A DNA stretch of 64,000 nucleotides from NCBI RefSeq assembly GCF_001429185.1, contig NZ_LMIW01000001.1:186968-250967 (forward strand). The letters run 5' to 3'. Under the pieces are notes generated by a model. It worked only from the letters and a program-made list of their open reading frames with translations, was not told where the DNA came from and ran no database searches. This document shows positions 39,568 through 64,000 of this stretch, piece by piece (within the stretch, counting starts at the first letter, position 1; each line of letters opens with the position of its first letter). The translations under genes and the position numbers were made by a program. The DNA is from Terrabacter sp. Root85 (GTDB taxonomy: Bacteria; Actinomycetota; Actinomycetes; Actinomycetales; Dermatophilaceae).

Positions 39568-39699
39568 GGGCGCGGGGCGTGGCGGTGGTCGCGGCATCGG
39601 CGGCGGGCGCTGACGCTGGGAGCGAGCGTGCACAAGGGCGCGGGGCGTGGCGGTGGTCGCGGCATCGGCGGCGGGCGCTGACGCCGGGAGCGAGCGTGC
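39568..39699. repeat. 64-bp direct repeat, two copies 68 bp apart
   Basis: The stretch 39568-39631 recurs at 39636-39699 with a single difference (T at 39617, C at 39685). It is non-coding, lies in the gap after the aminotransferase, and contains GGCATCGGCGGCGG, the same block seen downstream of tuf. The recent look of the copy suggests slippage or unequal recombination. Confidence 0.85.
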
Positions 39700-58822: not shown

Positions 58823-58919
58823 GGACGCGGCGCCAGGTCGTGCCCGCGACGCGTCCAGTGGGTAGGTGCACCTCGACGGCGTCGTCCGGCGCCGCGCCAC
58901 ACCCCGTGGAGGAGAAGCC

Positions 58920-59192
58920 ATGAGCGACAACCCGCTGGACCCCGTGAGCGACGACCCGACGACCGAAGGCCCCGCTGACGGCGGAGCCGACACGAGCAGC
59001 CACGACGGTGGTGCCGACGGTGGCGCCGACACCGAGGGCCCCGCTGACGGCGGAGCCGACACGAGCAGCCACGACGGTGGCGCCGACGGTGGCGCCGACA
59101 CCGAGGGCCCCGCTGACGGCGGAGCCGACACGAGCAGCCACGACGGTGGCGCCGACGGTGGGGCCGGAGCGGACCCGACCAGCTCGATCTGA
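58920..59192 (+). CDS. Short acidic repeat protein, candidate substrate of the adjacent JmjC oxygenase
   Basis: A 90-residue protein composed almost only of Asp, Gly, Ala, Ser, Thr and three His. Residues 16-84 are three copies of a 23-residue unit containing GPADGGADTSSHDGGADGG, with His at 28, 51 and 74 always in SSHDGG. There is no hydrophobic core, signal peptide or Cys. GGAGGAG precedes the ATG at 58920 and the stop overlaps the JmjC start (TGATG), which ties the two products together. Its nature as a modified peptide or a metal-binding tail is speculation. Confidence 0.72.
   Translation: MSDNPLDPVSDDPTTEGPADGGADTSSHDGGADGGADTEGPADGGADTSSHDGGADGGADTEGPADGGADTSSHDGGADGGAGADPTSSI
58968..59170. 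repeat. 69-bp tandem repeat, just under three copies
   Basis: Units begin at 58968, 59037 and 59106 with a period of 69 bp, in frame with the coding sequence. Copies are almost identical (for example GGTGGTGCC versus GGTGGCGCC), so copy number probably changes by recombination. Confidence 0.9.
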
Positions 59193-60439
59193 TGACCGCT
59201 GGCACGACGAGCCGGGTGCCCACGCACGAACGTGGGCGCTCGGCGCTCGCGCGCCTCGTCCCCTTCGCCGCCGACGAGTTCGCCACGGACCACTGGTCGC
59301 ACACGCCGGTCGTCACCAGGGCAGCCGACCTGCCGGGCGGACTGCTCGACCTCTTCGGCGAGGGCTCCGTCGACGAGCTCGTCTCCCGACGCGGGCTGCG
59401 CGCCCCTTTCCTGCGGGTCGCCCAGAACGGCCGCACCCTCGGTGACCGGGAGTTCACCCAGAGCGGAGGCGTCGGTGCATCCGTCGCCGACCAGGTGAGC
59501 GACGACAAGCTGCTCGGGCTCTTCGCCGACGGTGCCACCATCGTCCTGCAGGGGCTGCACCGTACGTGGGGGCCCCTCATCGACTTCACCCAGCAGCTCG
59601 CGGAGGAGCTGGGGCACCCGGTCCAGGCCAACGCGTACGTCACGCCCAGCCAGAACACCGGCTTCAGCGACCACTACGACGTGCACGACGTCTTCGTGCT
59701 CCAGATGGCCGGGGAGAAACGCTGGCGCGTCCGGCCCCCGGTGCACGACTCACCGCTGCGCGACGAGCCGTGGACCGACCACCGTGCCGAGGTCGAGGAG
59801 GCGGGACGTCGAGCACCTGACCACGAGTTCACGCTCCGTGCCGGTGACGTCCTCTACCTGCCGCGCGGCTGGGTGCACTCTGCCACCGCGCTCGGCGGGG
59901 TCAGCACGCACCTCACTCTGGGCGTCCACGTCTGGACGCGACGTCACGTGGCCGACGAGCTCGTGTCGATAGCGCTGGCCGAGGCCAGCCGCGACGAGAG
60001 CGTGCGCGCCTCCCTCGACGTCGCGCCGACGGGCTTCGACCACGAGGCCATCGCCCCCGACGTCGAGCTCGTGCGGGCAGCGCTCGTACGCGCCCTGGGC
60101 GAGATCGACGTGGCCACGGTCGTCGACGCGCTCGAGGCGCGCGCTCGCGGGTCGCAGCGTCCAGCACCGATCAGCCCACTCGCCCAGGTGGCAGCCGCTG
60201 AGGCCCTTCGTCCCGAGACGACGCTCCGGCTCCGGCCGCACGTGGCCGCGCGGCTCGTGCCCTCGGGCGACGGCCCGGCCCGGCTGCGCAGCCGCCTCGC
60301 CGACTTCCCGGTCGAGTCGCACGACGTCGGCACCTTCGTGGCGCTCGTGGCAGGCGGCGTGCTGCGTGCCGACATGGTCGGGCTCGAGCTGGCTCGTCGG
60401 CTGATGCTCTCCGGCCTGCTCGTCGTCGCCGACGACTGA
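59192..60439 (+). CDS. JmjC-domain (cupin) 2-oxoglutarate/Fe(II) oxygenase, ribosomal-oxygenase type
   Basis: A 415-residue protein with the fold of the RoxA/NO66/MINA53 group: an N-terminal region, the JmjC barrel with SQNTGFSDHYDVHDVFVLQM giving iron ligands His161 and Asp163, GEKRWRV with a likely 2-oxoglutarate-contacting basic residue, and distal His229 in LPRGWVHSA. A C-terminal helical and winged-helix-like part follows (about 255-415). Known relatives hydroxylate Arg or His in ribosomal proteins. The overlap with the His-repeat gene suggests a dedicated substrate instead. Confidence 0.85.
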   Translation: MTAGTTSRVPTHERGRSALARLVPFAADEFATDHWSHTPVVTRAADLPGGLLDLFGEGSVDELVSRRGLRAPFLRVAQNGRTLGDREFTQSGGVGASVADQVSDDKLLGLFADGATIVLQGLHRTWGPLIDFTQQLAEELGHPVQANAYVTPSQNTGFSDHYDVHDVFVLQMAGEKRWRVRPPVHDSPLRDEPWTDHRAEVEEAGRRAPDHEFTLRAGDVLYLPRGWVHSATALGGVSTHLTLGVHVWTRRHVADELVSIALAEASRDESVRASLDVAPTGFDHEAIAPDVELVRAALVRALGEIDVATVVDALEARARGSQRPAPISPLAQVAAAEALRPETTLRLRPHVAARLVPSGDGPARLRSRLADFPVESHDVGTFVALVAGGVLRADMVGLELARRLMLSGLLVVADD

Positions 60440-60560: not shown

Positions 60561-61322
60561 TCAGGCGGTGCCGGCCGCAGTCAGGATCGCCCGGGCACCG
60601 ACGAGGCTCGGGCCGTACCAGGTGAGCAGGCGTCCGCTGACGAGAGCCGTGCGGGCCTGCGTGAAGGCCTCCGGACCGTCGGCCGCCGTGAAGACGTAGG
60701 GCTCGTCGGGCAGCAGGACGGTCATGCCCTCACGGTCGAGGTCGGCCACCTCGACGTGCGGATAGCGGTCTGCGTCGTCGGCGAGGACGTTGCGCCAGCC
60801 GAGCCGCGACACGAGGTCACCGGTGAAGGTGTCACGCCCGACCGCCATCCACGGGTCGCGCCAGATCGCCACGGCCACGTCGACGACGGGCTCGGGCACG
60901 GGCCCACCCCACTCGCCCCGCGCGGCGACGAGCCAGCCGGGTGTGCCGACCTCGAGCACCTCGACGAAGAGTCGATCGAGGGAGTCCAGCGCCCCCGGCA
61001 CCGTCTCGATGTCGGTGACCCAGACCGGTAGGCCGTCAGCCCGCAGCCGGCGGACGTCGAGCTCGCGGTTCTCCTCCTTGTTGGCCACGACGAGATCCGG
61101 CTCGAGAGCCGAGATGGCCCTGAGGTCGGGGTTCTTGGTGCCCCGAACCCGTTGCACCGCAAGACCTTCCGGATGCGTGCACCAGTCGGTCGCGCCGACG
61201 AGCCGCTCCGGGCACGTCGTCGCCAGCGCCTCGGTGATCGACGGGACCAACGACACGACCCGGCGTGGCGGTGTCGGGAACGACACGGCATACGCCAGGT
61301 CGTCGGCGAGTGTCACCGGCAC
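60561..61322 (-). CDS. Cytoplasmic BtuF-like (helical backbone metal receptor) protein
   Basis: A 253-residue protein with the pattern of periplasmic B12/iron-siderophore receptors: RRVVSLVPSITEALATTCPE at the start, GTKNPDLRAISALEPDLVVA, and a second lobe ending GPSLVGARAILTA. It has no signal peptide or lipobox, so it should stay in the cytoplasm, and no ABC permease is nearby. GTG at 61322 is used. Its downstream neighbour is a B12-dependent mutase, so a role in cofactor or metal handling is plausible but unproven. Confidence 0.72.
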   Translation of the reverse strand: MPVTLADDLAYAVSFPTPPRRVVSLVPSITEALATTCPERLVGATDWCTHPEGLAVQRVRGTKNPDLRAISALEPDLVVANKEENRELDVRRLRADGLPVWVTDIETVPGALDSLDRLFVEVLEVGTPGWLVAARGEWGGPVPEPVVDVAVAIWRDPWMAVGRDTFTGDLVSRLGWRNVLADDADRYPHVEVADLDREGMTVLLPDEPYVFTAADGPEAFTQARTALVSGRLLTWYGPSLVGARAILTAAGTA

Positions 61323-61327
61323 GGTTC

Positions 61328-61346
61328 GTGGCCTTTCGACGGTTGC
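61328..61346. repeat. Further GTGGCC-TCGACGGT unit between the BtuF-like gene and icmF
   Basis: GTGGCCTTTCGACGGTTGC at 61328-61346 matches GTGGCCTCTCGACGGTTG at 60481-60498. The units thus flank the BtuF-like gene on both sides. This unit ends about 6 bp before the end of the icmF gene. Confidence 0.55.
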
Positions 61347-61352
61347 AGCGGT

Positions 61353-64000
61353 TCAGACGTTGCGGCGGTACTGGCCACCGACCTCGAAGAAGGCCTCGGT
61401 CACCTGCTGGAGCGAGCACACCCGCGCCGCCCGCATGAGGACGTCGAAGACGTTGCCGCCCTCGATGGCGACGGCCTTGAGCTCCTCGAGCGCCGCCGCC
61501 GCCTCGACCTCGTGCTCTGCGCGGAACGCCCGGACGCGCGAGAGCTGGCTCTGCTTCTCCTCCTCGGTGCCACGGGCGAGCACGACCGTGCGGGGCACGT
61601 CACCCTCGTGCGGGTTGCGGAAGGTGTTGACGCCGACGATCGGCAGGCTGCCGTCGTGCTTGCGGTGCTCGTAGAGCATCGACTCGTCCTGGATGCGGCC
61701 ACGCTGGTAGCCGGTCTCCATGGCCCCGAGCACGCCGCCGCGCTCGGTGATGCGGTCGAACTCCTTGAGGACGGCCGCCTCGACGAGGTCGGTCAGCTCG
61801 TCGATGACGAACGAGCCCTGGAGCGGGTTCTCGTTCATCGCGAGCCCCCACTCGCGGTTGATGATGAGCTGGATGGCGAGGGCGCGACGCACCGACTCCT
61901 CCGACGGGGTCGTCACGGCCTCGTCGAACGCGTTGGTGTGCAAGGAGTTCGCGTTGTCGTAGATCGCGATGAGCGCCTGCAGCGTCGTGCGGATGTCGTT
62001 GAAGTCCATCTCCTGCGCGTGGAGCGAGCGACCCGACGTCTGGACGTGATACTTCAGCTTCTGCGACCGCTCCCCCGCGTTGTACTTCTCCTTCATCGCC
62101 ACGGCCCAGATGCGGCGGGCCACGCGGCCGAGCACGGAGTACTCCGGGTCCATGCCGTTGCTGAAGAAGAAGCTGAGGTTGGGCGCGAAGTCGTCGACCG
62201 CCATGCCGCGCGCGAGGTAGCTCTCGACGTAGGTGAAGCCGTTGGCGAGGGTGAAGGCGAGCTGGCTGATGGGGTTCGCCCCGGCCTCGGCGATGTGGTA
62301 GCCGGAGATCGACACGGAGTAGAAGTTGCGGACCTTCCGCTCGATGAACCACTCCTGGATGTCGGCCATCATCTTGAGGCTGAACTCGGTGCTGAAGATG
62401 CAGGTGTTCTGGCCCTGGTCCTCCTTGAGGATGTCGGCCTGCACCGTGCCGCGGACGTTGGCGAGGGCGTATGCCGTGAGCTCCTCGCGCTCGACGTCGC
62501 CGGGCTCCCTGCCCTCCCGCGCCCGGAAGGCATCGACCTGCTGGTCGATGGCGGTGTTGAGGAAGAAGGCGAGGATCGTCGGCGCCGGACCGTTGATCGT
62601 CATGGAGACGCTCGTCGTCGGGGACACGAGGTCGAAGCCGTCGTAGAGGGCCTTCATGTCGTCGAGCGTGGCGACGGAGACGCCCGAGGTGCCGACCTTG
62701 CCGTAGACGTCGGGGCGGGGGTCGGGGTCGCGGCCGTAGAGCGTCACGGAGTCGAAGGCCGTGGACAGGCGGGTGGCCGGCTGCCCCTCGGAGACGAGCT
62801 TGAAGCGGCGGTTGGTGCGGAACGGGTCGCCCTCCCCCGCGAACATGCGCGCCGGGTCCTCCCCCTCGCGCTTGAACGGGAAGACCCCGGCGGTGAAGGG
62901 GTAGTAGCCGGGGAGGTTCTCGCGGCGCAGGAAGCTGACGAGCTCGCCGTGGTCGCGATAGCGAGGCAGTGAGACGCGGGGGATCTTGTTGCCCGACAAC
63001 GACTCCCGGGTCAGGGTGTTGCGGATCTCCTTGCCCCGGATCGTCACGACCTGCTCGTCGCCGGAGTAGGACTCGACGACGGAGGGCCAGTCGGCGAGCG
63101 CGCTCGCCACGTCGGTCGGCACGTCGGTGCGGGCGTGGTCGAGCAGGGCCTCGACGGCGTCGACCGCGCTCTCGGCGCTGTCGACGTCGTCGGCCGCGGC
63201 TGCGGCCGCGAGCTCCCCGCGCACCGACTCGAGCCGCTGCACCCGACTGGCCGCGGCGGCATACCGCTCGGTGGCCTCGTGGTAGCCGCGGACGGTGTCA
63301 CTGATCTCGGCGAGGTAGCGCACCCGGGACGCGGGCACGATGGTCGCGATGCGGGTGGACTGCCTCGTGGCGACGCGCGGCAGCACGCCCTCGTCGACGG
63401 GCATCCCCTTCTCCGAGAGCAGCTCGCGCAGCTGCTGGTAGAGCGCGGTGACGCCGTCGTCGTTGAAGGTGGCCGCCGAGGTGCCGTAGACGGGCATGTC
63501 GGCCGGGCTCTTGCCGAAGGCCTCGCGGTTGCGCACCATCTGGCGGCCGACGTCGCGCAGGGCGTCCTCGGCGCCGCGGCGCTCGAACTTGTTGATGGCC
63601 ACGACGTCGGCGCGGTCGAGCATGTCGATCTTCTCGAGCTGGCTGCTGGCGCCGAACTCCGGCGTCATGACGTAGAGGGAGACGTCGGCGTAGTCGATGA
63701 CGGCGGCGTCGCCCTGGCCGATGCCCGGCGTCTCGAGGATGACGAGGTCGAAGCCGGCGGCGCGCACGACGTCGAGGACGTCATCGAGGTGGGTCGGCAC
63801 CTGCGAGCCGCCGCGCGTGGCGAGGCTCCGGAAGAAGACGCGGTCGCCGTCGAGCGAGCTCATCCGGATGCGGTCGCCGAGGAGCGCTCCGCCGCCACGG
63901 CTGCGGGTCGGGTCGACGGCGAGCACGGCGACCCGCAGCTTGTCCTGCTGGTCGAGGCGCAGCCGGCGGATCAGCTCGTCGGTGAGGCTCGACTTGCCGG
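61353..64000 (-). CDS. icmF: Fused isobutyryl-CoA mutase IcmF (N-terminal part outside window)
   Basis: The visible 881 residues enter the window at the Walker A of the MeaI-type GTPase chaperone (GKSSLTDELIRRLR) with ETPGIGQGD and NKFERRG following, then a linker and the B12-dependent mutase barrel. YPFTAGVFPFKREGEDPARM, with Phe after YP rather than the Tyr of methylmalonyl-CoA mutase, points to IcmF. The B12-binding domain expected at the N-terminus lies beyond position 64000. The enzyme interconverts isobutyryl-CoA and butyryl-CoA. The C-terminus GGQYRRNV is complete. Confidence 0.9.
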   Translation of the reverse strand, partial: GKSSLTDELIRRLRLDQQDKLRVAVLAVDPTRSRGGGALLGDRIRMSSLDGDRVFFRSLATRGGSQVPTHLDDVLDVVRAAGFDLVILETPGIGQGDAAVIDYADVSLYVMTPEFGASSQLEKIDMLDRADVVAINKFERRGAEDALRDVGRQMVRNREAFGKSPADMPVYGTSAATFNDDGVTALYQQLRELLSEKGMPVDEGVLPRVATRQSTRIATIVPASRVRYLAEISDTVRGYHEATERYAAAASRVQRLESVRGELAAAAAADDVDSAESAVDAVEALLDHARTDVPTDVASALADWPSVVESYSGDEQVVTIRGKEIRNTLTRESLSGNKIPRVSLPRYRDHGELVSFLRRENLPGYYPFTAGVFPFKREGEDPARMFAGEGDPFRTNRRFKLVSEGQPATRLSTAFDSVTLYGRDPDPRPDVYGKVGTSGVSVATLDDMKALYDGFDLVSPTTSVSMTINGPAPTILAFFLNTAIDQQVDAFRAREGREPGDVEREELTAYALANVRGTVQADILKEDQGQNTCIFSTEFSLKMMADIQEWFIERKVRNFYSVSISGYHIAEAGANPISQLAFTLANGFTYVESYLARGMAVDDFAPNLSFFFSNGMDPEYSVLGRVARRIWAVAMKEKYNAGERSQKLKYHVQTSGRSLHAQEMDFNDIRTTLQALIAIYDNANSLHTNAFDEAVTTPSEESVRRALAIQLIINREWGLAMNENPLQGSFVIDELTDLVEAAVLKEFDRITERGGVLGAMETGYQRGRIQDESMLYEHRKHDGSLPIVGVNTFRNPHEGDVPRTVVLARGTEEEKQSQLSRVRAFRAEHEVEAAAALEELKAVAIEGGNVFDVLMRAARVCSLQQVTEAFFEVGGQYRRNV

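Follow-up and report, generated by a model that had tools for sequence, protein, structure and literature searches.

The described enzymes closest to the oxygenase studied here are NO66, MINA53 and RoxA (YcfD), whose targets, according to the available text of PMC6006756, are His or Arg residues of ribosomal proteins. JmjC-type enzymes also act on ribosomal precursor peptides: BipG and PbsQ are presented in the accessible parts of PMC12707348 and PMC12257519 as ornithine hydroxylases of biphenomycin-type RiPPs, in clusters that additionally contain an MNIO, an arginase and a B12 radical SAM enzyme, and with an F-R-F motif as target. Regarding Asp, FIH (factor inhibiting HIF), a JmjC-type hydroxylase of repeat proteins, accepts L-Asp (excerpts of PMC9814778), and PesHI and SmaO hydroxylate Asp in a RiPP precursor peptide, with SmaO/SmaX proceeding from there to aminomalonate; the accessible portions of these two reports (PMC13060819, PMC13097080) mention neither a JmjC nor a cupin enzyme and describe no Asp-repeat core. 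Moreover, the available part of PMC12710340 states that some eukaryotic PF08007 JmjC proteins bear folds like those of RiPP recognition elements (RREs), which require a three-strand, three-helix order, and that the closest bacterial homologues of these proteins occur in RiPP-like contexts; it also cites (its reference 45) work on macrocyclisation by a 2-oxoglutarate dioxygenase in RiPPs. In the literature searched, which was mostly freely readable and represented by titles and starts of abstracts among the matches listed, neither an Asp-repeat precursor with a JmjC enzyme nor 'sucrase ferredoxin' together with 'cupin' was found, in agreement with an earlier note on this DNA, which knew of no described system of this make-up.

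The locus compared here with these systems lies in a stretch of 64,000 nucleotides from Terrabacter sp. Root85 (NZ_LMIW01000001.1, positions 186,968-250,967, forward strand), hereafter called the window. A short gene for an Asp-rich repeat peptide precedes a JmjC oxygenase gene (Table 1), and the two share one base, as the final stop base of the former doubles as the first base of the ATG of the latter. We infer that the two genes are translationally coupled. With NO66, MINA53 and RoxA, the window enzyme has in common the JmjC_2 domain, the iron ligands and a fold extending over nearly the full length; unlike them, it is proposed to have a coupled, dedicated short substrate gene. A precursor peptide as the proposed substrate is also its likeness to BipG and PbsQ, as far as the accessible text on these goes, while the cores of the present family are Asp-rich repeats and its constant partner is a Suc_Fer-like protein. 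Upstream of the peptide gene, GGGTAGG was present in all 11 aligned regions and the GACGGCGTCGTCCGG block was kept only in the nearer ones; in the alignment of close relatives both blocks are conserved amid diverging flanks, and may represent a promoter or regulatory element, although the follow-up pointed to no regulator.

Table 1. Features of the peptide-JmjC locus, with positions counted within the window.
Feature	Position	Strand	Remarks
Upstream element GGGTAGG... GACGGCGTCGTCCGG	58860..58894	+	Possible promoter or start region; 11-region alignment
Shine-Dalgarno-like GGAGGAG, 5' of the peptide gene	58908..58914	+	Sequence; GGAGGA kept in 11 aligned regions
Asp-rich repeat peptide, 90 aa	58920..59192	+	Proposed precursor/substrate; ATG 58920, TGA 59190-59192
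N-terminal 14 residues of the peptide, MSDNPLDPVSDDPT	58920..58961	+	At the position of the relatives' leader motif, no clear match; alignment
Repeat unit 1, TEGPADGGADTSSHDGGADGGAD	58962..59030	+	
Repeat unit 2, identical in sequence to unit 1	59031..59099	+	
Repeat unit 3, final residues diverged	59100..59168	+	
TGATG stop-start overlap of the peptide and JmjC genes	59190..59194	+	Sequence
JmjC 2-oxoglutarate oxygenase, 415 aa	59192..60439	+	NO66/RoxA fold; ATG 59192
C-terminal domain of the JmjC protein, residues 344-406	60221..60409	+	Strands then three helices in model

The peptide consists of a short N-terminal part followed by three units of 23 residues, the third diverging at its end, and the corresponding 69-bp array (3.0 copies, 97% matches, 58956-59166) has the highest tandem-repeat score of the window, 392 against 257 for the next. 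The latter, at 39568-39699, has a 68-bp unit in 1.9 copies with 98% matches. Thus, a 90-residue protein of near-identical units whose stop overlaps the JmjC start by one base, as the earlier note had described it, was found again. Compared with the relative whose JmjC protein is 96% identical, the peptide gene shows five nucleotide differences, all of them in third positions and without any amino acid change; compared with the equally long gene of Humibacillus xanthopallidus, 37 nucleotide differences result in four amino acid changes over 90 residues. As judged from these alignments, the frame is conserved as a protein, i.e., it is a genuine gene. These whole-gene counts were used in place of a unit-level pN/pS of 0.119, which was discarded as biased, since the units had been chosen by a pattern that fixes most residues. 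Inside the genus, the number of repeats ranges from 2 to at least 5. The window peptide contains no aromatic residue and has no match in Pfam or NCBIfam; among 37 peptides searched against both, no named family was found and the weak matches concerned single members, the best being daptide_123 (NCBIfam, E 0.009) and RHS (Pfam, E 0.016).

The JmjC frame matches Pfam JmjC_2 (PF08007, E 1.5e-27). His161, Asp163 and His229, pointed out before as intact iron ligands of a RoxA/NO66-type enzyme, are the same in all 44 aligned homologues and line up with the HxD...H of NO66. A profile of these homologues, compared with solved structures, retrieved NO66 (E 3e-46), MINA53, the YcfD/RoxA enzymes and YxbC. 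In agreement, an AlphaFold model (16-row alignment; pLDDT 84.5, pTM 0.80) had as its top PDB match in Foldseek NO66 (4y4r), along almost the whole protein (E 4.1e-22, TMq 0.66, rmsd 7.2), followed by MINA53, YcfD and YxbC. FIH, which is eukaryotic, appeared at ranks 43 and below with a lower similarity (E 2.8e-8), and we know of no substrate gene coupled to it. In the model, residues 344-406 form strands and then three helices, as expected of a C-terminal winged-helix-like domain; given that this is the strand-helix order of the RRE definition, the domain is a candidate for binding the peptide's N-terminal part. R75, H165 and D166 had been considered as marks of Asp binding, and were dropped because they are invariant also in distant homologues lacking a peptide. 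In Terrabacter aerolatus (L038 4001-5258/L161), the JmjC gene is divided over two reading frames beside an intact peptide gene, possibly as a pseudogene or through a sequencing error.

We then focused on how constantly the two genes occur together. JmjC searches of 58 relative genomes (E 1e-20; 28 rows) and of 396 genomes belonging to the phylum (E 1e-10; 64 rows) gave 89 different match rows combined, from which 88 loci were read: 60 with flanks of about 9 kb, contig ends permitting, and 28 from the remaining 29 rows. Among the 85 testable loci, an Asp-rich repeat frame was read directly upstream of the JmjC gene in 72, so that a short precursor-type gene beside a modifying enzyme, as is usual for RiPPs, is found at most of them. 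This total comprises 53 of 59 loci in the first set (L126 set aside at a contig end; L098, acidic and without repeats, counted as lacking the peptide; L125 counted as having it) and 19 of 26 in the second, where seven lack the peptide and L169 and L181 were set aside at contig ends. A mechanical criterion, i.e., an Asp-rich, K/R-poor frame ending near the start of the next gene, selected 53 of 60 JmjC genes and 12 of 763 neighbouring genes; it missed L125, whose repeat peptide is too rich in K/R, and accepted L098. Of the 13 loci without a repeat peptide, two (L090 and L098) belong inside the family and the other 11 (L135-L138, L177-L180 and L182-L184) hold distant homologues scoring 77 to 116 bits, although two loci with scores as low, L094 (109 bits) and L176 (101 bits), do have the peptide. 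All eight genomes of the same genus carry the peptide at the JmjC gene. Named genera with the pair are Terracoccus, Terrabacter, Humibacillus, Intrasporangium, Luteipulveratus, Nocardioides and Ornithinimicrobium.

The stop-start distance is mostly between -50 and +29 bases, often -4 or -1, and in relatives values of -4 to +1 are common; gaps of 170, 179 and 229 are overestimates arising from L093, L115, L130 and L040, where the start codon was placed too far downstream. These are the four of 81 loci, located with a query file of P0001, P0002 and P0003, that P0001 alone did not confirm (77 of 81 confirmed). With the peptide query P0003, 17 matches were obtained in 15 of the 58 relative genomes, every one at the JmjC gene, and none in the 32 relative genomes without a JmjC match; as the query misses diverged peptides (11 genomes with JmjC gave no match), this result speaks only for the absence of close copies elsewhere. 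In the genome of strain Root85 itself, the four other matches of the peptide query were at chance level (E 0.075 to 0.83). Overall, it is well supported that the pairing of peptide and JmjC genes exceeds chance and is widespread in Actinomycetota.

From the 81 loci, 71 peptides (70 distinct; some with start codons placed too early) were drawn, which fall into two classes. Class A (41 of 71, the window's class) is built of units of the form EGPADGGA...(H/Q)DGGADG(G/S/T)A, and class B (30 of 71) has cores that are mostly DADGTDGDATDG-like. When the peptide classes are placed on a maximum-likelihood tree of 65 JmjC proteins, each of the two is associated with a different clade: the three labels require six changes, compared to a mean of 26.7 after shuffling, and none of 200 shuffles was as low. 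For this tree, L122, L130, L038, L040 and L050 were dropped as too short and seven of 21 named loci were added; L125 and L126 carry the label 'none', and L135-L138 sit on long branches with unsure placement. Such agreement is expected of an enzyme and its substrate, but linked descent alone could also produce it.

The N-terminus of class B peptides usually reads L-S/T-D-E/D-D-I-x-T, in some followed by V-x-G-G, and we take it to resemble closely the double-glycine leaders of RiPPs. A loose form of this pattern matched 25 of 29 peptides of class B, compared with 2.6% when class B was shuffled, and 8 of 22 of class A. The window peptide fails the loose pattern; in the alignment MSDNPLDPVSDDPTT occupies the position, and could at best be a worn form of the leader. 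In L114, the motif is kept in front of a different core (SADGTDQGV.GGTYGPRDAS), which is what a precursor would show. Neither this motif nor a Suc_Fer-like third gene is visible from the window alone, since both appear only in relatives.

Concerning the residue that might be modified, the earlier note had favoured oxidation of the single His of each repeat, in the manner of NO66 and MINA53 on ribosomal proteins. The closest solved relatives of the window enzyme are indeed histidyl hydroxylases, and His precedes DGGADG in all three window units and in 81 of 110 class A units. In the remaining units, however, the position holds Q (24), A (3), R (1) or V (1), the Nocardioides peptide having Gln in place of His, and His is entirely lacking from 32 of 71 cores (class A, 10 of 41; class B, 22 of 30), the enzyme being conserved nonetheless. 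His as a constant target was rejected on these counts, and hydroxylation of the repeat His by the JmjC enzyme appears very unlikely as an explanation of the pair. Asp makes up 17% of class A and 35% of class B cores, with 9 to 45 residues per peptide, and the next residue is G, A, S or T at 95% of 550 places in class A and 93% of 604 in class B (summed fractions). Given that Asp before a small residue is constant and His is variable, the common target, if it is one residue, would be Asp. Counting against Asp is the fact that, in those JmjC relatives whose targets are known, the modified residue is His, Arg or Orn, FIH being a more distant precedent.

We also analyzed the neighbouring genes. 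A Suc_Fer-like gene (two members, when scanned, matched PF06999 at E 4.8e-22 and 7.4e-24) lies directly 3' of the JmjC gene, often overlapping it as ATGA, in 50 of 71 peptide-bearing loci, i.e., 41 of 52 in the first set with at least 600 bases downstream and 9 of 19 in the second. It is absent from the other 21 of 71 loci, the window included; eight of the ten misses in the second set belong to the window's own genus, and in the window's clade no Suc_Fer gene is linked to the JmjC gene, peptide and enzyme being nevertheless kept. By class, among loci with room, the gene was found in 15 of 22 for class A, 26 of 30 for class B and 1 of 7 for others, the sole positive one being L126, cut off on its upstream side; it is also present in L181 of the second set. 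In the linked proteins, Cys135, Cys143, Cys144 and His168 are invariant (22 of 22), and some of them are presumably [2Fe-2S] ligands, the protein probably carrying such a cluster. H140 and D172 are each present in 21 of 22, as opposed to R and H in five of five unlinked paralogues, among them the Root85 copy. Two kinds of Suc_Fer-like protein can hence be told apart (L149-L156), and the Asp/His difference at position 172 possibly reflects a change of cluster ligand. Unlinked copies are common, with Suc_Fer-like genes in 42 and JmjC in 26 of the 58 relatives. The single Suc_Fer-like gene of the Root85 genome was rejected as the missing partner, as it best matches the unlinked paralogues L151, L150, L155 and L154 and has R and H at positions 140 and 172.

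The MBL-fold zinc-ribbon gene upstream, noted previously as a possible part of the system, is present as described; as a component it was rejected, since it is only a local neighbour, occurring in 12 of 81 loci, all close relatives, where it ends 373 to 791 bp 5' of the JmjC start (L038 excepted, its JmjC gene being split). Downstream of the pair, on the minus strand (60561-63998), lies a gene for a TroA-like metal-receptor protein without obvious signal peptide, behind a large mutase-type gene; the two look like a B12-related pair unrelated to the peptide and its oxygenase. The TroA-like gene was likewise rejected as a component, its cluster being confined to L079 and L080 among the 60 wide loci. 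In these 60 neighbourhoods, analyzed with a simple gene caller that small or odd genes may escape, no leader peptidase or exporter recurred at a fixed place, and no further gene cluster did so in more than four.

Distant relatives of the enzyme were found in other settings. In L135 (8835-11909), a distant JmjC gene lies directly behind YcaO and TfuA genes, and is a candidate tailoring enzyme of a thioamide-type RiPP; on a Pseudanabaena plasmid, another is located about 2.8 kb from a LanM gene. A Dolichospermum plasmid (L147 2655-2870) encodes, near its JmjC gene, a 71-aa peptide with MSDEDIKSI and LNGG, which resembles the actinobacterial leader motif and possibly represents a cyanobacterial branch. 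In Streptomyces clavuligerus, a JmjC protein with 38% identity over 277 residues is preceded by a 48-aa peptide (LEPDEIEV and two IAD-x-DP-like stretches); at L148, another Streptomyces plasmid locus, no such peptide was recognized by annotation or motif.

Two further explanations of the pair have to be considered. According to one, the peptide serves, as an acidic partner or a metal-holding chaperone, the JmjC protein, whose true target is a ribosomal protein, as for RoxA/YcfD. The fold, including the C-terminal domain, is that of the ribosomal oxygenases, Asp-rich repeats could bind metal without being modified, and unmodified repeats could work by themselves; the lack of a conserved leader peptidase or exporter nearby would fit as well. 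Against this, many lineages preserve the N-terminal motif despite strong divergence in core and number of repeats, as in a precursor, distant homologues sit in other peptide-modification clusters, and the JmjC gene is patchy, occurring in 58 of the 396 genomes of the phylum sample (E 1e-10). Taken together, we regard a chaperone role as quite unlikely. The settings of other JmjC relatives, namely those of BipG/PbsQ, YcaO with TfuA, and near LanM, support reading the peptide as a precursor.

The other explanation accepts a modified core and changes the chemistry to desaturation, hydroxylation followed by aminomalonate formation, cleavage of the backbone or cross-linking, possibly involving Suc_Fer. 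Elsewhere in RiPPs, 2-oxoglutarate enzymes carry out several of these reactions, SmaO/SmaX being an example in the available text of PMC13097080, and the third gene may encode a redox protein. Nevertheless, the nearest relatives of known chemistry hydroxylate, and the window's clade retains peptide and enzyme in the absence of a linked Suc_Fer gene. Cross-links in particular would be limited, as Cys is missing from all 71 cores and aromatic residues from most of them (class A, 39 of 41; class B, 28 of 30); the aromatic-Arg-aromatic motif of biphenomycin-type cores is not found here either. Such alternative chemistry is unlikely, and hydroxylation is the reaction we retain.

Phylum-wide adjacency, co-segregation of peptide class and enzyme clade, and the absence of close copies away from the enzyme support the dedicated repeat substrate put forward in the earlier note, and the peptide is very probably the substrate of the JmjC enzyme. 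With some reservation, we favour a family of RiPP-like enzyme-substrate pairs, each made up of an Asp-rich precursor and a JmjC enzyme that hydroxylates it, probably at Asp. The short gene would then encode a precursor with an N-terminal recognition part, i.e., the leader clear in many relatives and worn in the window peptide, and a core built from Asp-rich repeats. Translated from the same message at the overlapping TGATG, the JmjC enzyme would recognize the N-terminal part, perhaps through its C-terminal domain, and, with Fe(II), O2 and 2-oxoglutarate, hydroxylate the core stepwise along its length, with the beta-carbon of the repeated Asp preceding a small residue as the most likely site. 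In most lineages, the Suc_Fer-like protein might supply electrons or iron, or serve a later step. Several observations count against this reading: the leader motif is clear in a minority of class A peptides and not in that of the window, no protease or exporter is conserved, L090, L098 and the 11 distant homologues have no peptide, and Suc_Fer is missing from part of the loci. The pair may be filed as RiPP-like peptide modification by a JmjC oxygenase, short of a proven RiPP.

As no exporter or protease is linked to the pair, the product may remain intracellular. Siderophores use hydroxyaspartate to bind iron, which makes a metal-binding product an attractive, though unproven, reading. The most extended form of the proposal, in which peptides throughout the phylum are beta-hydroxylated at Asp by JmjC enzymes to give a hydroxyaspartate polymer that stays inside the cell and binds a metal, be it iron or another, with Suc_Fer as redox or iron partner, is speculative and rather doubtful as a whole; if true, such a polymer would be a carboxylate counterpart of the cysteine-based ribosomal metallophores. 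If the pairs are indeed enzymes with their own Asp-rich precursors, they would constitute a compact natural system in which a JmjC oxygenase has a substrate other than ribosomes or histones, with both partners encoded side by side in many genera, and an additional RiPP-like family, unnamed in the Pfam and NCBIfam versions searched. Moreover, Asp would enter the chemistry of the bacterial JmjC group, and the 'ribosomal oxygenases' would be tied to peptide-tailoring enzymes.
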